DNA from: Ilex aquifolium
Lineage: Eukaryota; Streptophyta; Magnoliopsida; Aquifoliales; Aquifoliaceae
Direction of reading: 5' to 3'
Length of the DNA: 64,000 nt
Assembly: GCA_951799425.1 (NCBI GenBank)
Contig: OX637399.1
Span: 36,491,701-36,555,700, forward strand
Part shown: positions 1 through 64,000 of the stretch, piece by piece
Layout: each line of letters begins with the position of its first letter
How positions within the stretch are numbered: position 1 is the stretch's first letter
The notes under the pieces: generated by a model
Database searches by the model: none
What the model saw: only the letters and a program-made list of their open reading frames with translations
Told to the model about the DNA's origin: nothing
Translations under genes and position numbers: made by a program

Positions 1-363
1 TATACCAAACTTCCATCACAATTTCGAACTTGTTAGAAGATGAATCACCAATTTTGATCTCAATATATTGGTTTGGGTTTCAAGTTCTCTTTGCAATGCC
101 GCAAGAATTAGCTCAATCCGAGTTCGGGAGAAAGAGTTATGTCGGATATAATATTTCATTTTAAAGGAGGACTACTTATTACACAAAACTTGCGTTACAA
201 TAGAGCCCATGCTAGAGGATTTTTCATGACTTTTGATGTGAATAAAATGGTTAGGGATTGAAGAATTCTTTACAATGCCGCAAGAATCATCTTAATCAGA
301 GACCGGAGCAAAAAGTTATGTCAGAAATACTAAAGATTGGGAAATTAGTTTTTTTTTTTCCTT
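1..363 (+). repeat. Partial type A monomer at the window edge
   Basis: The window opens inside a class A monomer; about 18 bp of its start are missing. GGTTTGGG, TCCGAG, AGCCCAT and GATGTGAATAAAATGG identify it. The junction into the next monomer reads TTGAGGAGGGG rather than the usual TTGTGGAGGGG, a private change. Confidence 0.93.
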
Positions 364-1118
364 GAGGAGGGGAATGGCCAACTATACCAAACTTCCATCT
401 TCGAACTTGTTAGAAGATGAATCACCAATTTTGATCTCAATATATTGGTTAGGGTTTCAAGTTCTCATTGCAATGCCGCAAGAATTAGCTCAATCAGAGT
501 TCGGGAGAAAAAGTTATGTCCGATATAATATTTCATTTTAAAGGAGGACTACTTATTACACAAAACTTGCATTACAATAGAGCCCATGCTAGAGGATTTT
601 TCATGACTTTTGACGTGAATGAAATGGTTAGGGATTGAAGAATTCTTTACAATGCCGCAAGAATCATCTTAATCAGAGACCGGAGCAAAAAGTTATGTCA
701 GAAATACTAAAGAATGGGAAATTACTTTTTTTTTCCTTGTGGAGGGGAATGGCCAACTTTACCAAACTTCCATCACAATTTCGAACTTGTTAGAAGATGA
801 ATCACCAATTTTGATCTCAATATATTTGTTAGGGTTTCAAGTTCTCTTTGCAATGCCGTAAGTATTAGCTCAATCCGAGTTCGGGAGAAAGAGTTATGTC
901 GGATATAATATTTCATTTTAAAGGAGGACTACTTATTACACAAAACTTGCGTTACAATAGAGTCCATGCTAGAGGATTTTTCTTGACTTTTGATGTGAAT
1001 GAAATGGTTAGGGATTGAAGAATTCTTTACAATTCCGCAAGAATCATCTTAATCAGAGACCGGAGCAAAAAGTTATGTCAGAAATACTGAAGATTGGGAA
1101 ATTACTTTTTTTTGCCTT

Positions 1119-1300
1119 GTGGAGGGGAATGTCCAACTATACCAAACTTCCATCACAATTTCGAACTTGTTAGAAGATGAATCACCAATTTTGATCTCAA
1201 TATATTGGTTTGGGTTTCAAGTTCTCTTTGCAATGCCGCAAGAATTAGCTCAATCCGAGTTCGGGAGAAAGAGTTATGTCGGATATAATATTTCATTTTA
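1119..1300 (+). repeat. First half-unit of the monomer (about 182 bp)
   Basis: The left half of the monomer aligns to the right half. The GGAGG at 1121 corresponds to the GGAGG at 1303, and the core AATGCCGCAAGAAT appears in both, about 179 bp apart. A hand alignment from TTTTGAT through GTTATGTC to ATA gives about 23 mismatches in about 100 columns without gaps. The monomer is therefore an old tandem dimer of a roughly 180-200 bp ancestor. Confidence 0.88.
1255..1264. repeat. Short dyad CCGA-GT-TCGG
   Basis: A 4-bp inverted repeat with a 2-bp centre lies in the first half-unit of A and C monomers. In B it is broken (CAGAGTTCGG), as in the second half-unit (AGAGACCGG). No known binding site is recognised. 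Confidence 0.5.
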
Positions 1301-1397
1301 AAGGAGGACTACTTATTACACAAAACTTGCGTTACAATAGAGCCCATGCTAGAGGATTTTTCATGACTTTTGATGTGAATAAAATGGTTAGGGATTG

Positions 1398-1407
1398 AAG
1401 AATTCTT
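1398..1407. repeat. 10-bp palindrome with EcoRI site, one per monomer
   Basis: AAGAATTCTT is a perfect 10-bp palindrome in the second half-unit, with GAATTC at 1400-1405. It is present once in nearly every monomer; exceptions I found are at about 51030 (GAATTA), 53301 and 56332 (GAATTT). The equivalent place in the first half reads AGTTCT and has no site. It should give a roughly 379-bp EcoRI ladder. Confidence 0.93.
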
Positions 1408-1485
1408 TACAATGCCGCAAGAATCATCTTAATCAGAGACCGGAGCAAAAAGTTATGTCAGAAATACTAAAGATTGGGAAATTAG

Positions 1486-1495
1486 TTTTTTTTTT
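1486..1495 (+). repeat. T run at the A-to-B monomer junction
   Basis: Every monomer ends with a T run just before (G)CCTTGTGGAGGGG. Its length depends on the junction type: T10-T11 after A, T9 after B (1862-1870) and T8 followed by GCC after C (2242-2249). Together with ATTAG or ATTAC before it, the run serves as a class marker. Confidence 0.9.
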
Positions 1496-2636
1496 CCTTG
1501 TGGAGGGGAATGGCCAACTATACCAAACTTCCATCTTCGAACTTGTTAGAAGATGAATCACCAATTTTGATCTCCATATATTGGTTAGGGTTTCAAGTTC
1601 TCATTGCAATGCCGCAAGAATTAGCTCAATCAGAGTTCGGGAGAAAAAGTTATGTCCGATATAATATTTCATTTTAAATGAGGACTACTTATTACACAAA
1701 ACTTGCATTACAATAGAGCCCATGCTAGAGGATTTTTCATGACTTTTGATGTGAATAAAATGGTTAGGGATTGAAGAATTCTTTACAATGCCGCAAGAAT
1801 CATCTTAATCAGAGACCGGAGCAAAAAGTTATGTCAGAAATACTAAAGAATGGGAAATTACTTTTTTTTTCCTTGTGGAGGGGAATAACCAACTATACCA
1901 AACTTCCATCACAATTTCGAACTTGTTAGAAGATGAATCACCAATTTTGATCTCAATATATTTGTTAGGGTTTCAAGTTCTCTTTGCAATGCCGTAAGTA
2001 TTAGCTCAATCCGAGTTCGGGAGAAAGAGTTATGTCGGATATAATATTTCATTTTAAAGGAGGATTACTTATTACACAAAACTTGCGTTACAATAGAGTC
2101 AATGCTAGAGGATTTTTCGTGACTTTTGATGTGAATGAAATGGTTAGGGATTGAAGAATTCTTTACAATGCCGCAAGAATCATCTTAATCAGAGACCGGA
2201 GCAAAAAGTTATGTCAGAAATACTGAAGATTGGGAAATTACTTTTTTTTGCCTTGTGGAGGGGAATGTCCAACTATACCAAACTTCCATCACAATTTCGA
2301 ACTTGTTAGAAGATGAATCACCAATTTTGATCTCAATATATTGGTTTGGGTTTCAAGTTCTCTTTGCAATGCCGCAAGAATTAGCTCAATCCGAGTTCGG
2401 GAGAAAGAGTTATGTCGGATATAATATTTCATTTTAAAGGAGGACTACTTATTACACAAAACTTGCGTTACAATAGAGCCCATGCTAGAGGATTTTTCAT
2501 GACTTTTGATGTGAATAAAATGGTTAGGGATTGAAGAATTCTTTACAATGCCGCAAGAATCATCTTAATCAGAGACCGGAGCAAAAAGTTATGTCAGAAA
2601 TACTAAAGATTGGGAAATTAGTTTTTTTTTTTCCTT

Positions 2637-3011
2637 GTGGAGGGGAATGGCCAACTATACCAAACTTCCATCTTCGAACTTGTTAGAAGATGAATCACCA
2701 ATTTTGATCTCAATATATTGGTTAGGGTTTCAAGTTCTCATTGCAATGCCGCAAGAATTAGCTCAATCAGAGTTCGGGAGAAAAAGTTATGTCCGATATA
2801 ATATTTCATTTTAAAGGAGGACTACTTATTACACAAAACTTGCATTACAATAGAGCCCATGCTAGAGGATTTTTCATGACTTTTGACGTGAATGAAATGG
2901 TTAGGGATTGAAGAATTCTTTACAATGCCGCAAGAATCATCTTAATCAGAGACCGGAGCAAAAAGTTATGTCAGAAATACTAAAGAATGGGAAATTACTT
3001 TTTTTTTCCTT
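2637..3011 (+). repeat. Type B1 monomer (reference copy)
   Basis: Reference copy of class B, 375 bp. It is 5 bp shorter than A because ACAAT is missing (CCATCTTCGAAC instead of CCATCACAATTTCGAAC). Other class B marks are GGTTAGGGTTTC, TTCTCATTGC, TCAGAGTTCGGG, GTCCGAT and TTGCATTAC. Subtype B1 has CTCAATATA and GACGTGAATGAAATGG. Subtype B2 (for example 1500-1874) has CTCCATATA and GATGTGAATAAAATGG. B2' adds TTTCTCATG, B' has CTTCGATCTTCG, and B3 marks the right end. The tail is ACTAAAGAATGGG before a T9 run. Confidence 0.95.
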
Positions 3012-3391
3012 GTGGAGGGGAATGGCCAACTTTACCAAACTTCCATCACAATTTCGAACTTGTTAGAAGATGAATCACCAATTTTGATCTCAATATATTT
3101 GTTAGGGTTTCAAGTTCTCTTTGCAATGCCGTAAGTATTAGCTCAATCCGAGTTCGGGAGAAAGAGTTATGTCGGATATAATATTTCATTTTAAAGGAGG
3201 ACTACTTATTACACAAAACTTGCGTTACAATAGAGTCCATGCTAGAGGATTTTTCATGACTTTTGATGTGAATGAAATGGTTAGGGATTGAAGAATTCTT
3301 TACAATTCCGCAAGAATCATCTTAATCAGAGACCGGAGCAAAAAGTTATGTCAGAAATACTGAAGATTGGGAAATTACTTTTTTTTGCCTT
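3012..3391 (+). repeat. Type C1 monomer (reference copy)
   Basis: Reference copy of class C, 380 bp. Diagnostic bases: TATTTGTTAGGG, GCCGTAAGTATTAG (the C-to-T change makes TAA in the frame that is open in A), GAGTCCAT, GATGTGAATGAAATGG, and the tail ACTGAAGATTGGG with a T8 run followed by GCC. C1 begins GAATGGCCAACTTT and carries AATTCCGC. C2 (for example 1875-2254) begins GAATAACC and has GAGGATTAC and TTTCGTGAC. C3 (for example 15515-15894) begins GAATGACC. These linked marks let every monomer be classified by eye. Confidence 0.95.
3102..3110 (+). repeat. Single telomere-like motif in the monomer core
   Basis: TTAGGGTTT matches 1.3 units of the plant-type telomere repeat. It occurs once in the first half of B and C monomers. 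Class A has TTTGGGTTT instead, and the second half-unit has only TTAGGGATT. It is never tandem here, so it is not an interstitial telomere array and may be coincidental. Confidence 0.6.
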
Positions 3392-6300
3392 GTGGAGGGG
3401 AATGTCCAACTATACCAAACTTCCATCACAATTTCGAACTTGTTAGAAGATGAATCACCAATTTTGATCTCAATATATTGGTTTGGGTTTCAAGTTCTCT
3501 TTGCAATGCCGCAAGAATTAGCTCAATCCGAGTTCGGGAGAAAGAGTTATGTCGGATATAATATTTCATTTTAAAGGAGGACTACTTATTACACAAAACT
3601 TGCGTTACAATAGAGCCCATGCTAGAGGATTTTTCATGACTTTTGATGTGAATAAAATGGTTAGGGATTGAAGAATTCTTTACAATGCCGCAAGAATCAT
3701 CTTAATCAGAGACCGGAGCAAAAAGTTATGTCAGAAATACTAAAGATTGGGAAATTAGTTTTTTTTTTCCTTGTGGAGGGGAATGGCCAACTATACCAAA
3801 CTTCCATCTTCGAACTTGTTAGAAGATGAATCACCAATTTTGATCTCCATATATTGGTTAGGGTTTCAAGTTCTCATTGCAATGCCGCAAGAATTAGCTC
3901 AATCAGAGTTCGGGAGAAAAAGTTATGTCCGATATAATATTTCATTTTAAAGGAGGACTACTTATTACACAAAACTTGCATTACAATAGAGCCCATGCTA
4001 GAGGATTTTTCATGACTTTTGATGTGAATAAAATGGTTAGGGATTGAAGAATTCTTTACAATGCCGCAAGAATCATCTTAATCAGAGACCGGAGCAAAAA
4101 GTTATGTCAGAAATACTAAAGAATGGGAAATTACTTTTTTTTTCCTTGTGGAGGGGAATAACCAACTATACCAAACTTCCATCACAATTTCGAACTTGTT
4201 AGAAGATGAATCACCAATTTTGATCTCAATATATTTGTTAGGGTTTCAAGTTCTCTTTGCAATGCCGTAAGTATTAGCTCAATCCGAGTTCGGGAGAAAG
4301 AGTTATGTCGGATATAATATTTCATTTTAAAGGAGGATTACTTATTACACAAAACTTGCGTTACAATAGAGTCCATGCTAGAGGATTTTTCGTGACTTTT
4401 GATGTGAATGAAATGGTTAGGGATTGAAGAATTCTTTACAATGCCGCAAGAATCATCTTAATCAGAGACCGGAGCAAAAAGTTATGTCAGAAATACTGAA
4501 GATTGGGAAATTACTTTTTTTTGCCTTGTGGAGGGGAATGTCCAACTATACCAAACTTCCATCACAATTTCGAACTTGTTAGAAGATGAATCACCAATTT
4601 TGATCTCAATATATTGGTTTGGGTTTCAAGTTCTCTTTGCAATGCCGCAAGAATTAGCTCAATCCGAGTTCGGGAGAAAGAGTTATGTCGGATATAATAT
4701 TTCATTTTAAAGGAGGACTACTTATTACACAAAACTTGCGTTACAATAGAGCCCATGCTAGAGGATTTTTCATGACTTTTGATGTGAATAAAATGGTTAG
4801 GGATTGAAGAATTCTTTACAATGCCGCAAGAATCATCTTAATCAGAGACCGGAGCAAAAAGTTATGTCAGAAATACTAAAGATTGGGAAATTAGTTTTTT
4901 TTTTTCCTTGTGGAGGGGAATGGCCAACTATACCAAACTTCCATCTTCGAACTTGTTAGAAGATGAATCACCAATTTTGATCTCAATATATTGGTTAGGG
5001 TTTCAAGTTCTCATTGCAATGCCGCAAGAATTAGCTCAATCAGAGTTCGGGAGAAAAAGTTATGTCCGATATAATATTTCATTTTAAAGGAGGACTACTT
5101 ATTACACAAAACTTGCATTACAATAGAGCCCATGCTAGAGGATTTTTCATGACTTTTGACGTGAATGAAATGGTTAGGGATTGAAGAATTCTTTACAATG
5201 CCGCAAGAATCATCTTAATCAGAGACCGGAGCAAAAAGTTATGTCAGAAATACTAAAGAATGGGAAATTACTTTTTTTTTCCTTGTGGAGGGGAATGGCC
5301 AACTTTACCAAACTTCCATCACAATTTCGAACTTGTTAGAAGATGAATCACCAATTTTGATCTCAATATATTTGTTAGGGTTTCAAGTTCTCTTTGCAAT
5401 GCCGTAAGGATTAGCTCAATCCGAGTTCGGGAGAAAGAGTTATGTCGGATATAATATTTCATTTTAAAGGAGGACTACTTATTACACAAAACTTGCGTTA
5501 CATAAGAGGCCATGCTAGAGGATTTTTCATGACTTTTGATGTGAATGAAATGGTTAGGGATTGAAGAATTCTTTACAATTCCGCAAGAATCATCTTAATC
5601 AGAGACCGGAGCAAAAAGTTATGTCAGAAATACTGAAGATTGGGAAATTACTTTTTTTTGCCTTGTGGAGGGGAATGTCCAACTATACCAAACTTCCAAC
5701 ACAATTTCGAACTTGTTAGATGATGAATCACCAATTTTGATCTCAATATATTGGTTTGGGTTTCAAGTTCTCTTTGCAATGCCGCAAGAATTAGCTCAAT
5801 CCGAGTTCGGGAGAAAGAGTTATGTCGGATATAATATTTCATTTTAAAGGAGGACTACTTATTACACAAAACTTGCGTTACAATAGAGCCCATGCTAGAG
5901 GATTTTTCATGACTTTTGATGTGAATAAAATGGTTAGGGATTGAAGAATTCTTTACAATGCCGCAAGAATCATCTTAATCAGAGACCGGAGCAAAAAGTT
6001 ATGTCAGAAATACTAAAGATTGGGAAATTAGTTTTTTTTTTCCTTGTGGAGGGGAATGGCCAACTATACCAAACTTCCATCTTCGAACTTGTTAGAAGAT
6101 GAATCACCAATTTTGATCTCCATATATTGGTTAGGGTTTCAAGTTCTCATTGCAATGCCGCAAGAATTAGCTCAATCAGAGTTCGGGAGAAAAAGTTATG
6201 TCCGATATAATATTTCATTTTAAAGGAGGACTACTTATTACACAAAACTTGCATTACAATAGAGCCCATGCTAGAGGATTTTTCATGACTTTTGATGTGA

Positions 6301-6800
6301 ATAAAATGGTTAGGGATTGAAGAATTCTTTACAATGCCGCAAGAATCATCTTAATCAGAGACCGGAGCAAAAAGTTATGTCAGAAATACTAAAGAATGGG
6401 AAATTACTTTTTTTTTCCTTGTGGAGGGGAATAACCAACTATACCAAACTTCCATCACAATTTCGAACTTGTTAGAAGATGAATCACCAATTTTGATCTC
6501 AATATATTTGTTAGGGTTTCAAGTTCTCTTTGCAATGCCGTAAGTATTAGCTCAATCCGAGTTCGGGAGAAAGAGTTATGTCGGATATAATATTTCATTT
6601 TAAAGGAGGATTACTTATTACACAAAACTTGCGTTACAATAGAGTCCATGCTAGAGGATTTTTCGTGACTTTTGATGTGAATGAAATGGTTAGGGATTGA
6701 AGAATTCTTTACAATGCCGCAAGAATCATCTTAATCAGAGACCGGAGCAAAAAGTTATGTCAGAAATACTGAAGATTGGGAAATTACTTTTTTTTGCCTT

Positions 6801-9800
6801 GTGGAGGGGAATGTCCAACTATACCAAACTTCCATCACAATTTCGAACTTGTTAGAAGATGAATCACCAATTTTGATCTCAATATATTGGTTTGGGTTTC
6901 AAGTTCTCTTTGCAATGCCGCAAGAATTAGCTCAATCCGAGTTCGGGAGAAAGAGTTATGTCGGATATAATATTTCATTTTAAAGGAGGACTACTTATTA
7001 CACAAAACTTGCGTTACAATAGAGCCCATGCTAGAGGATTTTTCATGACTTTTGATGTGAATAAAATGGTTAGGGATTGAAGAATTCTTTACAATGCCGC
7101 AAGAATCATCTTAATCAGAGACCGGAGCAAAAAGTTATGTCAGAAATACTAAAGATTGGGAAATTAGTTTTTTTTTTTCCTTGTGGAGGGGAATGGCCAA
7201 CTATACCAAACTTCCATCTTCGAACTTGTTAGAAGATGAATCACCAATTTTGATCTCAATATATTGGTTAGGGTTTCAAGTTCTCATTGCAATGCCGCAA
7301 GAATTAGCTCAATCAGAGTTCGGGAGAAAAAGTTATGTCCGATATAATATTTCATTTTAAAGGAGGACTACTTATTACACAAAACTTGCATTACAATAGA
7401 GCCCATGCTAGAGGATTTTTCATGACTTTTGACGTGAATGAAATGGTTAGGGATTGAAGAATTCTTTACAATGCCGCAAGAATCATCTTAATCAGAGACC
7501 GGAGCAAAAAGTTATGTCAGAAATACTAAAGAATGGGAAATTACTTTTTTTTTCCTTGTGGAGGGGAATAACCAACTATACCAAACTTCCATCACAATTT
7601 CGAACTTGTTAGAAGATGAATCACCAATTTTGATCTCAATATATTTGTTAGGGTTTCAAGTTCTCTTTGCAATGCCGTAAGTATTAGCTCAATCCGAGTT
7701 CGGGAGAAAGAGTTATGTCGGATATAATATTTCATTTTAAAGGAGGATTACTTATTACACAAAACTTGCGTTACAATAGAGTCCATGCTAGAGGATTTTT
7801 CGTGACATTTGATGTGAATGAAATGGTTAGGGATTGAAGAATTCTTTACAATGCCGCAAGAATCATCTTAATCAGAGACCGGAGCAAAAAGTTATGTCAG
7901 AAATACTGAAGATTGGGAAATTACTTTTTTTTGCCTTGTGGAGGGGAATGTCCAACTATACCAAACTTCCATCACAATTTCGAACTTGTTAGAAGATGAA
8001 TCACCAATTTTGATCTCAATATATTGGTTTGGGTTTCAAGTTCTCTTTGCAATGCCGCAAGAATTAGCTCAATCCGAGTTCGGGAGAAAGAGTTATGTCG
8101 GATATAATATTTCATTTTAAAGGAGGACTACTTATTACACAAAACTTGCGTTACAATAGAGCCCATGCTAGAGGATTTTTCATGACTTTTGATGTGAATA
8201 AAATGGTTAGGGATTGAAGAATTCTTTACAATGCCGCAAGAATCATCTTAATCAGAGACCGGAGCAAAAAGTTATGTCAGAAATACTAAAGATTGGGAAA
8301 TTAGTTTTTTTTTTTCCTTGTGGAGGGGAATGGCCAACTATACCAAACTTCCATCTTCGAACTTGTTAGAAGATGAATCACCAATTTTGATCTCAATATA
8401 TTGGTTAGGGTTTCAAGTTCTCATTGCAATGCCGCAAGAATTAGCTCAATCAGAGTTCGGGAGAAAAAGTTATGTCCGATATAATATTTCATTTTAAAGG
8501 AGGACTACTTATTACACAAAACTTGCATTACAATAGAGCCCATGCTAGAGGATTTTTCATGACTTTTGATGTGAATAAAATGGTTAGGGATTGAAGAATT
8601 CTTTACAATGCCGCAAGAATCATCTTAATCAGAGACCGGAGCAAAAAGTTATGTCAGAAATACTAAAGAATGGGAAATTACTTTTTTTTTCCTTGTGGAG
8701 GGGAATAACCAACTATACCAAACTTCCATCACAATTTCGAACTTGTTAGAAGATGAATCACCAATTTTGATCTCAATATATTTGTTAGGGTTTCAAGTTC
8801 TCTTTGCAATGCCGTAAGTATTAGCTCAATCCGAGTTCGGGAGAAAGAGTTATGTCGGATATAATATTTCATTTTAAAGGAGGATTACTTATTACACAAA
8901 ACTTGCGTTACAATAGAGTCCATGCTAGAGGATTTTTCGTGACTTTTGATGTGAATGAAATGGTTAGGGATTGAAGAATTCTTTACAATGCCGCAAGAAT
9001 CATCTTAATCAGAGACCGGAGCAAAAAGTTATGTCAGAAATACTGAAGATTGGGAAATTACTTTTTTTTGCCTTGTGGAGGGGAATGTCCAACTATACCA
9101 AACTTCCATCACAATTTCGAACTTGTTAGAAGATGAATCACCAATTTTGATCTCAATATATTGGTTTGGGTTTCAAGTTCTCTTTGCAATGCCGCAAGAA
9201 TTAGCTCAATCCGAGTTCGGGAGAAAGAGTTATGTCGGATATAATATTTCATTTTAAAGGAGGACTACTTATTACACAAAACTTGCGTTACAATAGAGCC
9301 CATGCTAGAGGATTTTTCATGACTTTTGATGTGAATAAAATGGTTAGGGATTGAAGAATTCTTTACAATGCCGCAAGAATCATCTTAATCAGAGACCGGA
9401 GCAAAAAGTTATGTCAGAAATACTAAAGATTGGGAAATTAGTTTTTTTTTTTCCTTGTGGAGGGGAATGGCCAACTATACCAAACTTCCATCTTCGAACT
9501 TGTTAGAAGATGAATCACCAATTTTGATCTCAATATATTGGTTAGGGTTTCAAGTTCTCATTGCAATGCCGCAAGAATTAGCTCAATCAGAGTTCGGGAG
9601 AAAAAGTTATGTCCGATATAATATTTCATTTTAAAGGAGGACTACTTATTACACAAAACTTGCATTACAATAGAGCCCATGCTAGAGGATTTTTCATGAC
9701 TTTTGACGTGAATGAAATGGTTAGGGATTGAAGAATTCTTTACAATGCCGCAAGAATCATCTTAATCAGAGACCGGAGCAAAAAGTTATGTCAGAAATAC

Positions 9801-17031: not shown

Positions 17032-17412
17032 GTGGAGGGGAATGTCCAACTATACCAAACTTCCATCACAATTTCGAACTTGTTAGAAGATGAATCACCA
17101 ATTTTGATCTCAATATATTTGTTAGGGTTTCAAGTTCTCTTTGCAATGCCGTAAGTATTAGCTCAATCCGAGTTCGGGAGAAAGAGTTATGTCGGATATA
17201 ATATTTCATTTTAAAGGAGGACTACTTATTACACAAAACTTGCGTTACAATAGAGTCCATGCTAGAGGATTTTTCATGACTTTTGATGTGAATGAAATGG
17301 TTAGGGATTGAAGAATTCTTTACAATTCCGCAAGAATCATCTTAATCAGAGACCGGAGCAAAAAGTTATGTCAGAAATACTAAAGATTGGGAAATTAGTT
17401 TTTTTTTTCCTT
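17032..17412 (+). repeat. A/C/A mosaic monomer
   Basis: This monomer occupies an A position and starts (GTCC near 17044) and ends (ACTAAAGATTGGG with ATTAG) as class A. Its middle is class C: TATTTG at 17120, GCCGTAAG, GTCCAT, GAATGAAATGG and AATTCCGC at 17337. The donor matches C1. A double exchange or gene-conversion tract of at least about 218 bp explains it. It is why A-specific bases are missing between the A copies at 15895 and 18168. Confidence 0.9.
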
Positions 17413-51400: not shown

Positions 51401-51885
51401 ATTGAAGAATTCTTTACAATGCCGCAAGAATCATCTTAATCAGAGACCGGAGCAAAAAGTTATGTCAGAAAAACTAAAGAATGGGAAATTACTTTTTTTT
51501 TCCTTGTGGAGGGGAATGGCCAACTATACCAAACTTCCATCACAATTTCGAACTTGTTAGAAGATGAATCACCAATTTTGATCTCAATATATTTGTTAGG
51601 GTTTCAAGTTCTCTTTGCAATGCCGTAAGTATTAGCTCAATCCGAGTTCGGGAGAAAGAGTTATGTCGGATATAATATTTCATTTTAAAGGAGGACTACT
51701 TATTACACAAAACTTGCGTTACAATAGAGTCCATGCTAGAGGATTTTTCATGACTTTTGATGTGAATGAAATGGTTAGGGATTGAAGAATTCTTTACAAT
51801 GCCGCAAGAATCATCTTAATCAGAGACCGGAGCAAAAAGTTATGTCAGAAATACTGAAGATTGGGAAATTACTTTTTTTTGCCTT
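48476..51885 (+). repeat. Three trimers, transition from A2 to A5
   Basis: A2 48476, B1 48858, C 49233, A5 49613, B1 49995, C 50370, A5 50750, B1 51131, C 51506. The monomer at 48476 is the last A2. A5 (GAAGTGAATAAAATGG with GGAATTG) begins at 49613. The copy at 50750 has one G fewer in its opening GTGGAGGG and an ATCTGAATA change that is also present in the preceding C (50370). That shared base suggests local conversion between neighbours of different class. Confidence 0.9.
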
Positions 51886-54800
51886 GTGGAGGGGAATGTC
51901 CAACTATACCAAACTTCCATCACAATTTCGAACTTGTTAGAAGATGAATCACCAATTTTGATCTCAATATATTGGTTTGGGTTTCAAGTTCTCTTTGCAA
52001 TGCCGCAAGAATTAGCTCAATCCGAGTTCGGGAGAAAGAGTTATGTCGGATATAATATTTCATTTTAAAGGAGGACTACTTATTACACAAAACTTGCGTT
52101 ACAATAGAGCCCATGCTAGAGGATTTTTCATGACTTTTGAAGTGAATGAAATGGTTAGGAATTGAAGAATTCTTTACAATGCCGCAAGAATCATCTTAAT
52201 CAGAGACCGGAGCAAAAAGTTATGTCAGAAATACTAAAGATTGGGAAATTAGTTTTTTTTTTTCCTTGTGGAGGGGAATGGCCAACTATACCAAACTTCC
52301 ATCTTCGAACTTGTTAGAAGATGAATCACCAATTTTGATCTCAATATATTGGTTAGGGTTTCAAGTTCTCATTGCAATGCCGCAAGAATTAGCTCAATCA
52401 GAGTTCGGGAGAAAAAGTTATGTCCGATATAATATTTCATTTTAAAGGAGGACTACTTATTACACAAAACTTGCATTATAATAGAGCCCATGCTAGAGGA
52501 TTTTTCATGACTTTTGATGTGAATAAAATGGTTAGGGATTGAAGAATTCTTTACAATGCCGCAAGAATCATCTTAATCAGAGACCGGAGCAAAAAGTTAT
52601 GTCAGAAATACTGAAGATTGGGAAATTATTTTTTTTTTCCTTGTGGAGGGGAATGGCCAACTATACCAAACTTCCATCATAATTTCGAACTTGTTAGAAG
52701 ATGAATCACCAATTTTGATCTCAATATATTGGTTTGGGTTTCAAGTTCTCTTTGCAATGCCGCAAGAATTAGCTCAATCCGAGTTCGGGAGAAAGAGTTA
52801 TGTCGGATATAATATTTCATTTTAAAGGAGGACTACTTATTACACAAAACTTGCGTTACAATAGAGCCCATGCTAGAGGATTTTTCATGACTTTTGAAGT
52901 GAATAAAATGGTTAGGAATTGAAGAATTCTTTACAATGCCGCAAGAATCATCTTAATCAGAGACCGGAGCAAAAAGTTATGTCAGAAATACTAAAGATTG
53001 GGAAATTAGTTTTTTTTTTTCCTTGTGGAGGGGAATGGCCAACTATACCAAACTTCCATCTTCGAACTTGTTAGAAGATGAATCACCAATTTTGATCTCA
53101 ATATATTGGTTAGGGTTTCAAGTTCTCATTGCAATGCCGCAAGAATTAGCTCAATCAGAGTTCGGGAGAAAAAGTTATGTCCGATATAATATTTCATTTT
53201 AAAGGAGGACTACTTATTACACAAAACTTGCATTACAATAGAGCCCATGCTAGAGGATTTTTCATGACTTTTGACGTGAATGAAATGGTTAGGGATTGAA
53301 GAATTTTTTACAATGCCGCAAGAATCATCTTAATCAGAGACCGGAGCAAAAAGTTATGTCAGAAATACTAAAGAATGGGAAATTACTTTTTTTTTCCTTG
53401 TGGAGGGGAATGGCCAACTATACCAAACTTCCATCACAATTTCGAACTTGTTAGAAGATGAATCACCAATTTTGATCTCAATATATTTGTTAGGGTTTCA
53501 AGTTCTCTTTGCAATGCCGTAAGTATTAGCTCAATCCGAGTTCGGGAGAAAGAGTTATGTCGGATATAATATTTCATTTTAAAGGAGGACTACTTATTAC
53601 ACAAAACTTGCGTTACAATAGAGCCCATGCTAGAGGATTTTTCATGACTTTTGATGTGAATAAAATGGTTAGGGATTGGAGAATTCTTTACAATGCCGCA
53701 AGAATCATCTTAATCAGAGACCGGAGCAAAAAGTTATGTCAGAAATACTAAAGATTGGGAAATTACTTTTTTTTTTCCTTGTGGAGGGGAATGGCCAACT
53801 ATACCAAACTTCCATCATAATTTCGAACTTGTTAGAAGATGAATCACCAATTTTGATCTCAATATATTGGTTTGGGTTTCAAGTTCTCTTTGCAATGCCG
53901 CAAGAATTAGCTCAATCCGAGTTCGGGAGAAAGAGTTATGTCGGATATAATATTTCATTTTAAAGGAGGACTACTTATTACACAAAACTTGCGTTACAAT
54001 AGAGCCCATGCTAGAGGATTTTTCATGACTTTTGAAGTGAATAAAATGGTTAGGAATTGAAGAATTCTTTACAATGCCGCAAGAATCATCTTAATCAGAG
54101 ACCGGAGCAAAAAGTTATGTCAGAAATACTAAAGATTGGGAAATTAGTTTTTTTTTTTCCTTGTGGAGGGGAATGGCCAACTATACCAAACTTCCATCTT
54201 CGAACTTGTTAGAAGATGAATCACCAATTTTGATCTCAATATATTGGTTAGGGTTTCAAGTTCTCATTGCAATGCCGCAAGAATTAGCTCAATCAGAGTT
54301 CGGGAGAAAAAGTTATGTCCGATATAATATTTCATTTTAAAGGAGGACTACTTATTACACAAAACTTGCATTACAATAGAGCCCATGCTAGAGGATTTTT
54401 CATGACTTTTGACGTGAATGAAATGGTTAGGGATTGAAGAATTCTTTACAATGCCGCAAGAATCATCTTAATCAGAGACCGGAGCAAAAAGTTATGTCAG
54501 AAATACTGAAGATTGGGAAATTATTTTTTTTTGCCTTGTGGAGGGGAATGGCCAACTATACCAAACTTCCATCACAATTTCGAACTTGTTAGAAGATGAA
54601 TCACCAATTTTGATTTCAATATATTTGTTAGGGTTTCAAGTTCTCTTTGCAATGCCGTAAGTATTAGCTCAATCCGAGTTCGGGAGAAAGAGTTATGTCG
54701 GATATAATATTTCATTTTAAAGGAGGACTACTTATTACACAAAACTTGCGTTACAATAGAGTCCATGCTAGAGGATTTTTCATGACTTTTGATGTGAATG

Positions 54801-57800
54801 AAATGGTTAGGGATTGAAGAATTCTTTACAATGCCGCAAGAATCATCTTAATCAGAGACCGGAGCAAAAAGTTATGTCAGAAATACTGAAGATTGGGAAA
54901 TTACTTTTTTTTGCCTTGTGGAGGGGAATGTCCAACTATACCAAACTTCCATCACAATTTCGAACTTGTTAGAAGATGAATCACCAATTTTGATCTCAAT
55001 ATATTGGTTTGGGTTTCAAGTTCTCTTTGCAATGCCGCAAGAATTAGCTCAATCCGAGTTCGGGAGAAAGAGTTATGTCGGATATAATATTTCATTTTAA
55101 AGGAGGACTACTTATTACACAAAACTTGCGTTACAATAGAGCCCATGCTAGAGGATTTTTCATGACTTTTGATGTGAATAAAATGGTTAGGGATTGAAGA
55201 ATTCTTTACAATGCCGCAAGAATCATCTTAATCAGAGACCGGAGCAAAAAGTTATGTCCGAAATACTAAAGATTGGGAAATTACTTTTTTTTTTCCTTGT
55301 GGAGGGGAATGGCCAACTATACCAAACTTCCATCTTCGAACTTGTTAGAAGATGAATCACCAATTTTGATCTCAATATATTGGTTAGGGTTTCAAGTTCT
55401 CATTGCAATGCCGCAAGAATTAGCTCAATCAGAGTTCGGGAGAAAAAGTTATGTCCGATATAATATTTCATTTTAAAGGAGGACTACTTATTACACAAAA
55501 CTTGCATTACAATAGAGCCCATGCTAGAGGATTTTTCATGACTTTTGATGTGAATAAAATGGTTAGGGATTGAAGAATTCTTTACAATGCCGCAAGAATC
55601 ATCTTAATCAGAGACCGGAGCAAAAAGTTATGTCAGAAATACTGAAGATTGGGAAATTATTTTTTTTTTCCTTGTGGAGGGGAATGGCCAACTATACCAA
55701 ACTTCCATCACAATTTCGAACTTGTTAGAAGATGAATCACCAATTTTGATCTCAATATATTGGTTTGGGTTTCAAGTTCTCTTTGCAATGCCGCAAGAAT
55801 TAGCTCAATCCGAGTTCGGGAGAAAGAGTTATGTCGGATATAATATTTCATTTTAAAGGAGGACTACTTATTACACAAAACTTGCGTTACAATAGAGCCC
55901 ATGCTAGAGGATTTTTCATGACTTTTGAAGTGAATAAAATGGTTAGGAATTGAAGAATTCTTTACAATGCCGCAAGAATCATCTTAATCAGAGACCGGAG
56001 CAAAAAGTTATGTCAGAAATACTAAAGATTGGGAAATTAGTTTTTTTTTTTCCTTGTGGAGGGGAATGGCCAACTATACCAAACTTCCATCTTCGAACTT
56101 GTTAGAAGATGAATCACCAATTTTGATCTCAATATATTGGTTAGGGTTTCAAGTTCTCATTGCAATGCCGCAAGAATTAGCTCAATCAGAGTTCGGGAGA
56201 AAAAGTTATGTCCGATATAATATTTCATTTTAAAGGAGGACTACTTATTACACAAAACTTGCATTATAATAGAGCCCATGCTAGAGGATTTTTCATGACT
56301 TTTGACGTGAATGAAATGGTTAGGGATTGAAGAATTTTTTACAATGCCGCAAGAATCATCTTAATCAGAGACCGGAGCAAAAAGTTATGTCAGAAATACT
56401 AAAGAATGGGAAATTACTTTTTTTTTCCTTGTGGAGGGGAATGGCCAACTATACCAAACTTCCATCACAATTTCGAACTTGTTAGAAGATGAATCACCAA
56501 TTTTGATCTCAATATATTTGTTAGGGTTTCTAGTTCTCTTTGCAATGCCGTAAGTATTAGCTCAATCCGAGTTCGGGAGAAAGAGTTATGTCGGATATAA
56601 TATTTCATTTTAAAGGAGGACTACTTATTACACAAAACTTGCGTTACAATAGAGCCCATGCTAGAGGATTTTTCATGACTTTTGATGTGAATAAAATGGT
56701 TAGGGATTGGAGAATTCTTTACAATGCCGCAAGAATCATCTTAATCAGAGACCGGAGCAAAAAGTTATGTCAGAAATACTAAAGATTGGGAAATTACTTT
56801 TTTTTTTCCTTGTGGAGGGGAATGGCCAACTATACCAAACTTCCATCTTCGAACTTGTTAGAAGATGAATCACCAATTTTGATCTGAATATATTGGTTAG
56901 GGTTTCAAGTTCTCATTGCAATGCTGCAAGAATTAGCTCAATCAGAGTTCGGGAGAAAAAGTTATGTCCGATATAATATTTCATTTTAAAGGAGGACTAC
57001 TTATTACACAAAACTTGCATTACAATAGAGCCCATGCTAGAGGATTTTCATGACTTTTGATGTGAATAAAATGGTTAGGGATTGAAGAATTCTTTACAAT
57101 GCCGCAAGAATCATCTTAATCAGAGACCGGAGCAAAAAGTTATGTCAGAAATACTGAAGATTGGGAAATTATTTTTTTTTGCCTTGTGGAGGGGAATGGC
57201 CAACTATACCAAACTTCCATCACAATTTCGAACTTGTTAGAAGATGAATCACCAATTTTGATTTCAATATATTTGTTAGGGTTTCAAGTTCTCTTTGCAA
57301 TGCCGTAAGTATTAGCTCAATCCGAGTTCGGGAGAAAGAGTTATGTCGGATATAATATTTCATTTTAAAGGAGGACTACTTATTACACAAAACTTGCGTT
57401 ACAATAGAGTCCATGCTAGAGGATTTTTCATGACTTTTGATGTGAATGAAATGGTTAGGGATTGAAGAATTCTTTACAATGCCGCAAGAATCATCTTAAT
57501 CAGAGACCGGAGCAAAAAGTTATGTCAGAAATACTGAAGATTGGGAAATTACTTTTTTTTGCCTTGTGGAGGGGAATGTCCAACTATACCAAACTTCCAT
57601 CACAATTTCGAACTTGTTAGAAGATGAATCACCAATTTTGATCTCAATATATTGGTTTGGGTTTCAAGTTCTCTTTGCAATGCCGCAAGAATTAGCTCAA
57701 TCCGAGTTCGGGAGAAAGAGTTATGTCGGATATAATATTTCATTTTAAAGGAGGACTACTTATTACACAAAACTTGCGTTACAATAGAGCCCATGCTAGA

Positions 57801-58703
57801 GGATTTTTCATGACTTTTGATGTGAATAAAATGGTTAGGGATTGAAGAATTCTTTACAATGCCGCAAGAATCATCTTAATCAGAGACCGGAGCAAAAAGT
57901 TATGTCAGAAATACTAAAGATTGGGAAATTACTTTTTTTTTTCCTTGTGGAGGGGAATGGCCAACTATACCAAACTTCCATCTTCGAACTTGTTAGAAGA
58001 TGAATCACCAATTTTGATCTCAATATATTGGTTAGGGTTTCAAGTTCTCATTGCAATGCCGCAAGAATTAGCTCAATCAGAGTTCGGGAGAAAAAGTTAT
58101 GTCCGATATAATATTTCATTTTAAAGGAGGACTACTTATTACACAAAACTTGCATTACAATAGAGCCCATGCTAGAGGATTTTTCATGACTTTTGATGTG
58201 AATAAAATGGTTAGGGATTGAAGAATTCTTTACAATGCCGCAAGAATCATCTTAATCAGAGACCGGAGCAAAAAGTTATGTCAGAAATACTGAAGATTGG
58301 GAAATTATTTTTTTTTTCCTTGTGGAGGGGAATGGCCAACTATACCAAACTTCCATCACAATTTCGAACTTGTTAGAAGATGAATCACCAATTTTGATCT
58401 CAATATATTGGTTTGGGTTTCAAGTTCTCTTTGCAATGCCGCAAGAATTAGCTCAATCCGAGTTCGGGAGAAAGAGTTATGTCGGATATAATATTTCATT
58501 TTAAAGGAGGACTACTTATTACACAAAACTTGCGTTACAATAGAGCCCATGCTAGAGGATTTTTCATGACTTTTGAAGTGAATGAAATGGTTAGGAATTG
58601 AAGAATTCTTTACAATGCCGCAAGAATCATCTTAATCAGAGACCGGAGCAAAAAGTTATGTCAGAAATACTAAAGATTGGGAAATTAGTTTTTTTTTTTC
58701 CTT
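51886..58703 (+). repeat. Patchwork block of dimers, trimers and a pentamer
   Basis: Eighteen monomers: A5 51886, B 52268, A4 52643, B1 53025, C/A 53400, A4 53781, B1 54163, C 54538, A 54918, B3 55299, A4 55674, B1 56056, C/A 56431, B3 56812, C 57186, A 57566, B3 57947, A4 58322. A4 starts GAATGGCC and has an A body with the A5 rear (GAAGTG). Two duplications overlap here: 52643-53780 matches 55674-56811 (offset 3031), and 54918-56430 matches 57566-59078 (offset 2648). Confidence 0.88.
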
Positions 58704-60593
58704 GTGGAGGGGAATGGCCAACTATACCAAACTTCCATCTTCGAACTTGTTAGAAGATGAATCACCAATTTTGATCTCAATATATTGGTTAGGGTTTCAA
58801 GTTCTCATTGCAATGCCGCAAGAATTAGCTCAATCAGAGTTCGGGAGAAAAAGTTATGTCCGATATAATATTTCATTTTAAAGGAGGACTACTTATTACA
58901 CAAAACTTGCATTACAATAGAGCCCATGCTAGAGGATTTTCCATGACTTTTGACGTGAATGAAATGGTTAGGGATTGAAGAATTCTTTACAATGCCGCAA
59001 GAATCATCTTAATCAGAGACCGGAGCAAAAAGTTATGTCAGAAATACTAAAGAATGGGAAATTACTTTTTTTTTCCTTGTGGAGGGGAATGGCCAACTAT
59101 ACCAAACTTCCATCACAATTTCGAACTTGTTAGAAGATGAATCACCAATTTTGATCTCAATATATTTGTTAGGGTTTCAAGTTCTCTTTGCAATGCCGTA
59201 AGTATTAGCTCAATCCGAGTTCGGGAGAAAGAGTTATGTCGGATATAATATTTCATTTTAAAGGAGGACTACTTATTACACAAAACTTGCGTTACAATAG
59301 AGTCCATGCTAGAGGATTTTTCATGACTTTTGATGTGAATGAAATGGTTAGGGATTGAAGAATTCTTTACAATTCCGCAAGAATCATCTTAATCAGAGAC
59401 CGGAGCAAAAAGTTATGTCAGAAATACTGAAGATTGGGAAATTACTTTTTTTTGCCTTGTGGAGGGGAATGTCCAACTATACCAAACTTCCATCACAATT
59501 TCGAACTTGTTAGAAGATGAATCACCAATTTTGATCTCAATATATTGGTTTGGGTTTCAAGTTCTCTTTGCAATGCCGCAAGAATTAGCTCAATCCGAGT
59601 TCGGGAGAAAGAGTTATGTCGGATATAATATTTCATTTTAAAGGAGGACTACTTATTACACAAAACTTGCGTTACAATAGAGCCCATGCTAGAGGATTTT
59701 TCATGACTTTTGATGTGAATAAAATGGTTAGGGATTGAAGAATTCTTTACAATGCCGCAAGAATCATCTTAATCAGAGACCGGAGCAAAAAGTTATGTCA
59801 GAAATACTAAAGATTGGGAAATTACTTTTTTTTTTCCTTGTGGAGGGGAATGGCCAACTATACCAAACTTCCATCTTCGAACTTGTTAGAAGATGAATCA
59901 CCAATTTTGATCTCAATATATTGGTTAGGGTTTCAAGTTCTCATTGCAATGCTGCAAGAATTAGCTCAATCAGAGTTCGGGAGAAAAAGTTATGTCAGAT
60001 ATAATATTTCATTTTAAAGGAGGACTACTTATTACACAAAACTTGCATTACAATAGAGCCCATGCTAGAGGATTTTCATGACTTTTGATGTGAATAAAAT
60101 GGTTAGGGATTGAAGAATTCTTTACAATGCCGCAAGAATCATCTTAATCAGAGACCGGAGCAAAAAGTTATGTCAGAAATACTGAAGATTGGGAAATTAT
60201 TTTTTTTTGCCTTGTGGAGGGGAATGGCCAACTATACCAAACTTCCATCACAATTTCGAACTTGTTAGAAGATGAATCACCAATTTTGATCTGAATATAT
60301 TTGTTAGGGTTTCAAGTTCTCTTTGCAATGTCGTAAGTATTAGCTCAATCCGAGTTCGGGAGAAAGAGTTATGTCGGATATAATATTTCATTTTAAAGGA
60401 GGACTACTTATTACACAAAACTTGCGTTACAATAGAGTCCATGCTAGAGGATTTTTCATGACTTTTGATGTGAATGAAATGGTTAGGGATTGAAGAATTC
60501 TTTACAATGCCGCAAGAATCATCTTAATCAGAGACCGGAGCAAAACGTTATGTCAGAAATACTGAAGATTGGGAAATTACTTTTTTTTGCCTT
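58704..60593 (+). repeat. Five-monomer segment, copy 1 of a 1890-bp repeat
   Basis: B1 58704, C 59079, A 59459, B3 59840, C 60214. Linked marks are TTTTCCATG in the B, AATTCCGC in the first C, AATGCTGCAAG and a short GGATTTTCATG in B3, and ATCTGAATA with AATGTCGTAAG in the second C. All recur 3406 bp downstream in the same order. Differences seen are GTCAGAT at about 59997 and AAAACGTTA at about 60546. Confidence 0.92.
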
Positions 60594-62109
60594 GTGGAGG
60601 GGAATGTCCAACTATACCAAACTTCCATCACAATTTCGAACTTGTTAGAAGATAAATCACCAATTTTGATCTCGATATATTGGTTTGGGTTTCAAGTTTT
60701 CTTTGCAATGCCGCAAGAATTAGCTCAATCCGAGTTCGGGAGAAAGAGTTATGTCGGATATAATATTTCATTTTAAAGGAGGACTACTTATTACACAAAA
60801 CTTGCGTTACAATAGAGCCCATGCTAGAGGATTTTTCATGACTTTTGATGTGAATCAAATGGTTAGGGATTGAAGAATTCTTTACAATGCCGCAAGAATC
60901 ATCTTAATCAGAGACCGGAGCAAAAAGTTATGTCAGAAATACTAAAGATTGGGAAATTACTTTTTTTTTTCCTTGTGGAGGGGAATGGCCAACTATACCA
61001 AACTTCCATCTTCGAACTTGTTAGAAGATGAATCACCAATTTTGATCTCTATATATTGGTTAGGGTTTCAAGTTCTCATTGCAATGCCGCAAGAATTAGC
61101 TCAATCAGAGTTCGGGAGAAAAAGTTATGTCCGATATAATATTTCATTTTAAAGGAGGACTACTTATTACACAAAACTTGCATTACAATAGAGCCCATGC
61201 TAGAGGATTTTTCATGACTTTTGATGTGAATAAAATGGTTAGGGATTGAAGAATTCTTTACAATGCCGCAAGAATCATCTTAATCAGAGACCGGAGCAAA
61301 AAGTTATGTCAGAAATACTGAAGATTGGGAAATTATTTTTTTTTTCCTTGTGGAGGGGAATGACCAACTATACCAAACTTCCATCACAATTTCGAACTTG
61401 TTAGAAGATGAATCACCAATTTTGATCTCAATATATTTGTTAGGGTTTCAAGTTCTCTTTGCAATGCCGTAAGTATTAGCTCAATCCGAGTTCGGGAGAA
61501 AGAGTTATGTCGGATATAATATTTCATTTTAAAGGAGGATTACTTATTACACAAAACTTGCGTTACAATAGAGTCCATGCTAGAGGATTTTTCATGACTT
61601 TTGATGTGAATGAAATGGTTAGGGATTGAAGAATTCTTTACAATGCCGCAAGAATCATCTTAATCAGAGACCGGAGCAAAAAGTTATGTCAGAAATACTG
61701 AAGATTGGGAAATTACTTTTTTTTGCCTTGTGGAGGGGAATGTCCAACTATACCAAACTTCCATCACAATTTCGAACTTGTTAGAAGATGAATCACCAAT
61801 TTTGATCTCAATATATTGGTTTGGGTTTCAAGTTCTCTTTGCAATGCCGCAAGAATTAGCTCAATCCGAGTTCGGGAGAAAGAGTTATGTCGGATATAAT
61901 ATTTCATTTTAAAGGAGGACTACTTATTACACAAAACTTGCGTTACAATAGAGCCCATGCTAGAGGATTTTTCATGACTTTTGATGTGAATAAAATGGTT
62001 AGGGATTGAAGAATTCTTTACAATGCCGCAAGAATCATCTTAATCAGAGACCGGAGCAAAAAGTTATGTCAGAACTACTAAAGATTGGAAATTACTTTTT
62101 TTTTTCCTT
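60594..62109 (+). repeat. A-B3-C3-A spacer between the two 1890-bp copies
   Basis: A 60594, B3 60975, C3 61350, A 61730. The A at 60594 carries several private changes (GATAAATCA, CTCGATATA, AAGTTTTC, GAATCAAATGG), more than most A copies. B3 has CTCTATATA. The A at 61730 ends with GATTGGAAATT, one G fewer than normal, and ACTACTAAAG. Confidence 0.9.
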
Positions 62110-63999
62110 GTGGAGGGGAATGGCCAACTATACCAAACTTCCATCTTCGAACTTGTTAGAAGATGAATCACCAATTTTGATCTCAATATATTGGTTAGGG
62201 TTTCAAGTTCTCATTGCAATGCCGCAAGAATTAGCTCAATCAGAGTTCGGGAGAAAAAGTTATGTCCGATATAATATTTCATTTTAAAGGAGGACTACTT
62301 ATTACACAAAACTTGCATTACAATAGAGCCCATGCTAGAGGATTTTCCATGACTTTTGACGTGAATGAAATGGTTAGGGATTGAAGAATTCTTTACAATG
62401 CCGCAAGAATCATCTTAATCAGAGACCGGAGCAAAAAGTTATGTCAGAAATACTAAAGAATGGGAAATTACTTTTTTTTTCCTTGTGGAGGGGAATGGCC
62501 AACTATACCAAACTTCCATCACAATTTCGAACTTGTTAGAAGATGAATCACCAATTTTGATCTCAATATATTTGTTAGGGTTTCAAGTTCTCTTTGCAAT
62601 GCCGTAAGTATTAGCTCAATCCGAGTTCGGGAGAAAGAGTTATGTCGGATATAATATTTCATTTTAAAGGAGGACTACTTATTACACAAAACTTGCGTTA
62701 CAATAGAGTCCATGCTAGAGGATTTTTCATGACTTTTGATGTGAATGAAATGGTTAGGGATTGAAGAATTCTTTACAATTCCGCAAGAATCATCTTAATC
62801 AGAGACCGGAGCAAAAAGTTATGTCAGAAATACTGAAGATTGGGAAATTACTTTTTTTTGCCTTGTGGAGGGGAATGTCCAACTATACCAAACTTCCATC
62901 ACAATTTCGAACTTGTTAGAAGATGAATCACCAATTTTGATCTCAATATATTGGTTTGGGTTTCAAGTTCTCTTTGCAATGCCGCAAGAATTAGCTCAAT
63001 CCGAGTTCGGGAGAAAGAGTTATGTCGGATATAATATTTCATTTTAAAGGAGGACTACTTATTACACAAAACTTGCGTTACAATAGAGCCCATGCTAGAG
63101 GATTTTTCATGACTTTTGATGTGAATAAAATGGTTAGGGATTGAAGAATTCTTTACAATGCCGCAAGAATCATCTTAATCAGAGACCGGAGCAAAAAGTT
63201 ATGTCAGAAATACTAAAGATTGGGAAATTACTTTTTTTTTTCCTTGTGGAGGGGAATGGCCAACTATACCAAACTTCCATCTTCGAACTTGTTAGAAGAT
63301 GAATCACCAATTTTGATCTCAATATATTGGTTAGGGTTTCAAGTTCTCATTGCAATGCTGCAAGAATTAGCTCAATCAGAGTTCGGGAGAAAAAGTTATG
63401 TCCGATATAATATTTCATTTTAAAGGAGGACTACTTATTACACAAAACTTGCATTACAATAGAGCCCATGCTAGAGGATTTTCATGACTTTTGATGTGAA
63501 TAAAATGGTTAGGGATTGAAGAATTCTTTACAATGCCGCAAGAATCATCTTAATCAGAGACCGGAGCAAAAAGTTATGTCAGAAATACTGAAGATTGGGA
63601 AATTATTTTTTTTTGCCTTGTGGAGGGGAATGGCCAACTATACCAAACTTCCATCACAATTTCGAACTTGTTAGAAGATGAATCACCAATTTTGATCTGA
63701 ATATATTTGTTAGGGTTTCAAGTTCTCTTTGCAATGTCGTAAGTATTAGCTCAATCCGAGTTCGGGAGAAAGAGTTATGTCGGATATAATATTTCATTTT
63801 AAAGGAGGACTACTTATTACACAAAACTTGCGTTACAATAGAGTCCATGCTAGAGGATTTTTCATGACTTTTGATGTGAATGAAATGGTTAGGGATTGAA
63901 GAATTCTTTACAATGCCGCAAGAATCATCTTAATCAGAGACCGGAGCAAAAAGTTATGTCAGAAATACTGAAGATTGGGAAATTACTTTTTTTTGCCTT
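62110..63999 (+). repeat. Five-monomer segment, copy 2 of the 1890-bp repeat
   Basis: B3 62110, C 62485, A 62865, B3 63246, C 63620, the same length and order as 58704-60593. All linked marks recur at an offset of 3406 bp (nine monomer lengths). Base 64000 is the first G of the next monomer, which by context should be class A. Confidence 0.92.
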
Positions 64000-64000
64000 G

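Follow-up and report, generated by a model that had tools for sequence, protein, structure and literature searches.

What kind of repeat occupies this stretch of the Ilex aquifolium assembly, and how might its layered organization have arisen? The window, by which we mean the whole 64,000-bp stretch analyzed, is one continuous tandem array (positions 1 to 64000, forward strand; period 380 and 169 copies by TRF) without a single N, and it forms part of a larger subtelomeric block on chromosome 9 (C9). This array is very probably a noncoding subtelomeric satellite of holly in which blocks are homogenized by unequal crossing-over and monomer types are spread between chromosome ends.

Monomers, half-units, and a telobox-like motif

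The initial annotation counted 168 complete monomers filling the window, and our recount agrees (375 to 381 bp, with one 755-bp unit divided by hand). Most are 380 bp long (102 monomers), followed by 377 bp (40), 376 bp (18), and 379 bp (6), with one each of 381 and 375 bp, and the 167 monomer intervals comprise 77 distinct sequences. Each monomer consists of two diverged halves, so that half-units of 178 to 179 bp and 196 to 202 bp alternate along the array. For example, the 377-bp monomer at positions 106 to 482 (+) divides into half-units of 179 bp (106 to 284, +) and 198 bp (285 to 482, +). The consensus halves are identical at 125 of 179 aligned positions, whereas 30 shuffles gave 69 on average and never more than 90, which bears out the half-unit level of the proposed hierarchy. 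No open reading frame of at least 80 amino acids was found in bases 1 to 3000, and no Rfam match in bases 1 to 6000. A long tandem array of a noncoding monomer is the form expected of a plant subtelomeric satellite.

The window contains 119 copies of TTAGGGTTT, all on the same strand (for example, at positions 449 to 457, +), a motif that we take to be telobox-like. These copies raise the possibility that the satellite acts on chromosome ends in an active, sequence-dependent way, for instance with TTAGGGTTT as a binding site for telomere-repeat proteins. Such a role is improbable, as the motif is no better conserved than other parts of the monomer (36th percentile of its 9-base windows) and has been lost from the trimer's type-1 monomer. 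The same percentile gives no support for selection on TTAGGGTTT. We instead infer a heterochromatic and mostly passive role for the satellite at chromosome ends.

Higher-order blocks

Higher-order lags were tested against 300 permutations of monomer order per block, and the trimer, hexamer, heptamer, and 13-mer described initially are all real, each exceeding the permutations in its block. The first block (positions 106 to 18291, +; monomers 0 to 47) is built of trimers such as the 1,137-bp unit at 106 to 1242 (+), with 99.1% identity at lag 3 and 99.6% at lag 6 (permuted maximum, 97.9%), compared with 95.2% at lags 1 and 2. The heptamer block follows at 18292 to 25122 (+; monomers 48 to 65), where lag 7 identity reaches 99.98% against a permuted maximum of 98.7%, and the 13-mer block lies at 34218 to 44053 (+; monomers 90 to 115), with 99.4% at lag 13 against 98.2%. 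In these three blocks, copies of the unit are more alike than monomers are; homogenization is local, and elsewhere the picture is unclear. Monomers 66 to 99 pass marginally at lag 16 (98.2% versus 98.0%), and the irregular part at 44054 to 63743 (+) has no single higher-order period clearly above the permutations: monomers 116 to 139 show no lag above them (best 97.3% versus 98.0%, 300 permutations), and monomers 134 to 167 pass marginally at lag 15 (97.64% versus 97.60%). Clear order is confined to three blocks, with weak or marginal order in the other segments and an irregular last third. Likewise, the description of the higher-order repeats as nested holds for the hexamer over the trimer, but the other blocks are mostly successive. 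The depth singled out as noteworthy is in fact shallow, since monomers within one trimer are approximately 95% alike.

Copy number and chromosomal location

Using a 50-mer with up to 3 mismatches (reversed-pattern control, 0), we counted at least 72,938 copies genome-wide, which amounts to approximately 27.6 Mb (3.5% of the assembly). The block containing the window begins at C9:35,697,676, and every point sampled between that position and the end of the scaffold (37,412,598) contained the satellite. At the left end of C9, it also occupies each point sampled between 0 and 2.75 Mb, with 0 of 20 points positive between 3.0 and 35.69 Mb. When each arm was sampled at its end and 100 kb in (8 of the 20 chromosome starts are N in their first 1,200 bases, and seven of these, all except C2, were scored from the 100-kb sample alone), the satellite was found on 16 of 40 arms. 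Because there was none at the sampled points on the other 24, the satellite may be dispensable at some chromosome ends. On C2 and C20, it is joined directly to telomere repeats that face the chromosome end, and this position beside telomeres on several chromosomes marks it as subtelomeric and not centromeric.

Most outer edges are unseen because 8 of the 16 satellite arms, including both ends of C9, stop in satellite without a telomere and 3 begin with N. Uniform orientation toward the telomere was considered and dropped, as full sampling gave 11 co-oriented arms, 4 opposite, and 1 mixed between sample points; the right arm of C9, scored as opposite, is co-oriented along its inner 1.46 Mb. A 355-bp relative of the satellite was at first placed on C18 and C20 as well, where better scoring gave the main satellite family, and the C6 inner flank, considered as a unique site, is mostly dispersed repeat.

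The initial annotation named an assembly artefact as what would refute it. The telomere-less ends of C9, an inverted junction in its array at about 37,156,630, and trimer copies on the unplaced scaffolds C28 and C41 could each be read as signs that assembly or scaffolding produced the array's size or its higher-order pattern. However, neither the window nor the inverted junction contains N, copies differ in a graded way, the monomer intervals comprise the 77 distinct sequences noted above, the family recurs on 16 arms, and the genome note reports a consensus quality of QV 64.2 from HiFi reads (PMC11109700), so an artefact is very unlikely. That the array serves as the functional satellite of a centromere (the location implied by an earlier proposal to map CENH3), organized in higher-order repeats like primate alpha satellite, would agree with the higher-order structure and with a monomer that may span about two nucleosomes but is extremely unlikely, because the array sits at a chromosome end, telomere repeats directly adjoin the satellite on C2 and C20, and C9 carries it at both ends with none at the 20 interior points, whereas a centromeric satellite would be expected in one block per chromosome at the primary constriction.

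Trimer make-up and a proposed origin

Trimers were compared monomer by monomer on two chromosomes (4 trimers from C6 and 5 of 22 from C9), and their make-up differs between them. C6 trimers differ among themselves at 1 to 5 of 1,144 columns and C9 trimers at 0 to 33, compared with 32 to 41 between the chromosomes. The difference in make-up suggests that the trimers were probably assembled separately from a common monomer pool. Monomer types are shared between chromosomes: type 1, tried as a chromosome-specific form, was rejected as such and occurs on C6, C7, and C9. Among the matches listed, the window shares no long barcode of type-1 spacings with either C6 or C7; the longest common run was 4 intervals for C6, which is simply the spacing of the trimer, and 1 for C7.

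We infer that recombination underlies both the blocks and the spread of the family. Unequal crossing-over within arrays would amplify and homogenize local multi-monomer blocks, and such local homogenization would yield trimers, hexamers, heptamers, and 13-mers. Monomer types would be spread by exchange from one chromosome end to another, so that different ends could hold related monomers yet build their own higher-order units.

Telomere tracts and LINEs at inner array edges

At its inner edge, outside the window, the C9 array meets a short tract of telomere repeats, which lies behind a LINE that appears intact and is itself preceded by telomere repeats. The end of C13 shows a similar LINE-telomere pattern. 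Telomere tracts were found at two inner array edges, those of C9 and C6. The C9-edge element has the reverse transcriptase (Pfam RVT_1, 1.6e-36; zf-RVT, 7.5e-21) and endonuclease domains of a LINE, the endonuclease match (5.8e-05, 23.4 bits) falling slightly below the Pfam cutoff of 24.5, and its first open frame contains DUF4283. Copies of this LINE are inserted in telomere repeats: TTTAGGG repeats abut three LINE 3' ends, of which C9 has two and C13 one, and two LINE 5' ends, one from each chromosome, a count that is not unbiased, as the joints were noticed through the telomere repeats themselves. Among the candidates that were scored, approximately 30 interior positions carry relatives of its last 200 bp. 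The idea that C13 shows the C9 inner edge in a satellite-free state was dropped because the query lay wholly inside the LINE; the match thus reflects the same LINE family and not a common insertion. A second, poly-A-ended C13 piece was also rejected as LINE-like, having no clear similarity to the C9-edge LINE beyond poly-A.

The C9 inner edge may rest on the remains of an older chromosome end bearing a mobile element, with this array perhaps having been added distal to the older telomere. More tentatively, L1-type LINEs might insert into TTTAGGG telomeres, and megabase arrays might later be added distally by telomere-repeat-mediated exchange, leaving a new telomere outside; we regard this scenario as possible rather than probable. 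If this is true, a flowering plant would harbor LINEs that insert into telomeres, and subtelomeric satellites would have a direct way to colonize new chromosome ends. The tracts at two inner edges make the arrival of satellites at new ends testable.

Comparison with known systems

SART is among the telomere-specific LINEs of insects. TRAS1 is another (PMC6410037). The C9-edge LINE resembles TRAS1-like elements as a non-LTR retrotransposon flanked on either side by telomere repeats and differs in its flowering-plant host, its TTTAGGG repeats, and the DUF4283 of its first frame. If such elements were to prove telomere-specific, they would be a flowering-plant case of a behavior known from insects. 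The available portions of the plant telomere-LINE literature searched describe no LINEs inserted in plant telomere repeats. A wheat subtelomeric clone contains LINEs, and no TTTAGGG repeats were reported in the wheat clones; the same source cites rye pSc250 as lying within 4 kb of the telomere, and closeness of satellite and telomere is therefore already known (PMC2756281).

The initial annotation did not recognize the family, and this stands: we found no published description in the accessible parts of the literature on Ilex satellites, tandem repeats, genomes, and centromeres, including those of the Ilex aquifolium genome note (PMC11109700) and PMC11874746. The satellite appears to be undescribed yet of an ordinary kind. 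Primate alpha satellite was the comparison first offered. Its human form is alike in that multi-monomer blocks are amplified together and block copies are far more alike than monomers, but its block monomers are approximately 70% alike and lie at centromeres, compared with approximately 95% at chromosome ends in holly (PMC8122249). Rye pSc200 is closer, being a subtelomeric plant satellite with a 379-bp monomer that makes up several percent of the genome and forms multimers of 2 to 8 monomers, whose size depends on the array; the monomers of one sequenced array fall into two groups, with identities of 96% and 89% to its first monomer (PMC4857426). On organization alone, the two satellites agree in monomer size, subtelomeric position, genome share, and multimers, and they differ in the grass host of pSc200 and in the one 13-mer block of holly, compared with 2 to 8 monomers in rye (PMC4857426). 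Beside these systems, holly offers a sequence-resolved, multi-megabase plant example of subtelomeric higher-order repeats that would have formed by local homogenization of a common monomer pool.

Location and organization of the satellite

The ~379-bp satellite that fills the window is subtelomeric, not centromeric. All 40 arms of the holly chromosomes (C1 to C20) were sampled twice, once at the scaffold end and once 100 kb further inward; the C2 start was sampled at 4,800-8,600, since its first bases are N. Satellite was present on 16 of the 40 arms. On C9, where the window occupies 36,491,701-36,555,700, satellite was found at the left end at 1-5,000 and at 0.1, 0.2, 0.5, 1.0, 2.0, 2.25, 2.5, and 2.75 Mb and at the right end at all points sampled from 35.70 Mb to the scaffold end. 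A motif search at 20 interior points (3.0, 4.0, 5, 20, 30, 34, 34.5, 35.0, 35.25, 35.5, 35.6, and 35.61-35.69 Mb) detected none. The outer ends of the 16 satellite arms stop in satellite without telomere (eight arms), carry telomere repeats (five), or start with N (three). At 8 of the 20 chromosome starts (C2, C5, C10, C11, C12, C13, C17, and C19), the first 1,200 bases consist entirely of N, perhaps because the scaffold was padded or sequence was masked. The N run of C2 stops at 5,000 and is followed by telomere repeats.

A monomer 50-mer, allowed up to 3 mismatches, matched the assembly (800,232,872 bases in 103 contigs) 27,722 times in forward and 45,216 times in reverse orientation; the reversed-pattern control gave 0. 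At ~379 bp per match, the satellite amounts to 27.6 Mb, or 3.5% of the assembly, a lower bound because diverged copies escape the search.

The window is a single tandem array with no break and no N, and a recount bore out the 168 complete monomers of the initial annotation, with lengths of 375 to 381 bp. Each monomer consists of two alternating halves of 178-179 and 196-202 bp, whose consensus sequences are identical at 125 of 179 aligned positions (30 shuffles averaged 69 and reached 90 at most). Monomer-to-monomer identity averages 96.5%, and 77 distinct sequences occur among the 167 monomer intervals. The motif TTAGGGTTT is present in 119 copies, all on a single strand, and its conservation within the monomer is not unusual. 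No open reading frame of at least 80 amino acids was found in bases 1-3000 of the window, and no Rfam match in bases 1-6000. Most likely the satellite serves a passive or structural function in the subtelomere. At C7:26,000-27,296 lies a relative, a tandem repeat with a 355-bp unit and ~76% identity to the 379-bp monomer, which runs in the opposite orientation and joins the main satellite directly at ~27,300.

Higher-order blocks and the origin of trimers

We compared each monomer (numbered 0 to 167) with its n-th next neighbor (lag n) and, for each stretch, set the best lag against 300 permutations of monomer order. Lags 1 and 2 both give 95.2% identity across monomers 0-47, where lag 3 gives 99.1% and lag 6 gives 99.6%; identity reaches 99.98% at lag 7 in monomers 48-65 and 99.4% at lag 13 in monomers 90-115. 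Lags 6, 7, and 13 in these three stretches exceeded all 300 permutations, whose maxima were 97.9%, 98.7%, and 98.2%, respectively. Monomers 66-99 (98.2% versus 98.0%) and 134-167 (97.64% versus 97.60%) passed marginally, and no lag rose above the 300 permutations in monomers 116-139. Different blocks therefore follow one another along the window, together with less regular parts, and the largest less regular part lies at the end.

The tag recognizing the type-1 monomer, one monomer type of the window trimer, has 1,925 copies genome-wide (958 forward, 967 reverse), 37 of them in the window; the first 100 matches listed lie on C6 and C7. At the C6 start, four trimers share the 1137-bp spacing of the window. 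Per 1,144 columns, trimers differ at 1 to 5 positions within C6, 0 to 33 within C9, and 32 to 41 between C6 and C9 (4 C6 and 22 C9 trimers). Compared monomer by monomer (the 4 C6 trimers and 5 of the 22 from C9; a sixth, not cut into three, was left out), C6 position 1 is nearest to C9 position 1 (8.4 differences). C9 position 3 is the nearest match for C6 position 2 (8.1) as well as for C6 position 3 (8.3), and no C6 monomer comes close to C9 position 2 (nearest, 14.7). The C6 and C9 trimers are thus alike in length and unlike in composition, and the simplest reading of these distances is that they were assembled separately from a common monomer pool. Unequal crossing-over inside arrays would build the higher-order units, complemented by exchange between chromosome ends, and the trimer pattern fits this combination.

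Satellite-telomere joints and array orientation

Relative to the telomere, 11 of the 16 arms are co-oriented, 4 are opposite, and 1 is mixed, as scored at two points each. The C9 right arm scored as opposite, yet co-orientation holds over its inner 1.46 Mb, in which the window lies: at ~37,156,630, with no N at the junction, orientation flips within the satellite block from forward monomers on the left to reverse on the right.

Joints were searched for with co-oriented patterns only, in three phase windows each and with an exact 12-base motif required, so that others may be missed. This search recovered telomere-to-satellite joints only on C9 and at C6:1,524,881-1,524,929 (seven telomere repeats); those running from satellite to telomere were confined to C2 and C20. 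At C2 ~5,622 satellite directly joins end-facing telomere repeats, with the N run outside these, and at C20 ~27,412,325 end-facing telomere repeats directly join satellite. Other satellite arrays may lack telomere tracts at their edges. At the C9 and C6 inner edges, each tract is oriented as the native telomere of that arm; judging from these two cases, an older chromosome end may have gained satellite on its distal side. Most of the C6 inner flank is a dispersed repeat. Inside the array edge, the repeat at C6:1,524,931-1,526,394 has many copies, mostly 91 to 95% identical, both at other C6 positions and on further chromosomes.

LINEs embedded in telomere repeats

The satellite block containing the window starts at ~C9:35,697,676, and just inside this edge a 22-base poly-A is followed by 4.6 units of AGGGTTT and then the first monomer. 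This poly-A terminates a 7.1-kb LINE that is surrounded by TTTAGGG repeats close to the chromosome end (C9:35,690,340-35,697,676). Both of its frames are uninterrupted: the first (584 amino acids, stop to stop) matches DUF4283 (7.4e-25), and the second (1,318 amino acids) matches RVT_1 (1.6e-36), zf-RVT (7.5e-21), and RVT_3 (1.1e-11); an endonuclease match (5.8e-05) falls slightly below the Pfam cutoff. A stretch containing 18 TTTAGGG units immediately precedes the sequence leading into the LINE. Before that stretch comes an 11-base poly-A, with a 3' end that shares 82% identity over 45 bp with that of the C9 LINE. A further relative (56% identical) lies at C9:35,680,000.

The pattern recurs on C13, where a LINE of the same family (86 to 97% identical) lies in TTTAGGG repeats ~25.6 kb from the telomeric end (C13:33,139,098-33,142,683) and ends in poly-A and telomere repeats. 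A second piece of ~0.6 kb, with no clear similarity to the C9 LINE, also ends in poly-A and telomere repeats, after which a relative of the first open frame of the C9 LINE starts (48% identical). LINE coding relatives follow at C13:33,145,500, 33,150,000, and 33,155,000 (68%, 56%, and 39% identical) and telomere repeats at 33,160,500; no satellite was found in these four samples. Across the sequence that we read, telomere repeats border three LINE 3' ends and two 5' ends, together with one further poly-A end, a count biased by their having been spotted via those repeats; the poly-A side faces the chromosome end.

Among the scored candidates, relatives of the last 200 bp of the C9 LINE also occur at ~30 interior sites, which would argue against strict telomere specificity unless these also lie within telomere repeats. 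Elsewhere, telomere tracts near the C1 end (C1:62,166,696-62,197,019) are separated by gaps of ~14 and 12 kb, possibly further LINE insertions. A 70 to 83% relative of the C9 LINE region lies ~14-15 kb from the C6 telomeric end (C6:42,823,897-42,824,925), and the C8 scaffold start (C8:1-1200) holds a relative of the LINE first open frame (35% identity) and two TTTAGGG units.

Comparison with known satellites

Our searches of the Ilex satellite, tandem-repeat, centromere, and genome-assembly literature turned up no description of this holly satellite. The kind of satellite is already known, and its telomere-LINE context is more surprising than the satellite itself. Likened by organization only, rye pSc200 bears a striking resemblance to it in unit length, location, and multimers, and unequal crossing-over with end-to-end exchange is offered there as the explanation (PMC4857426).
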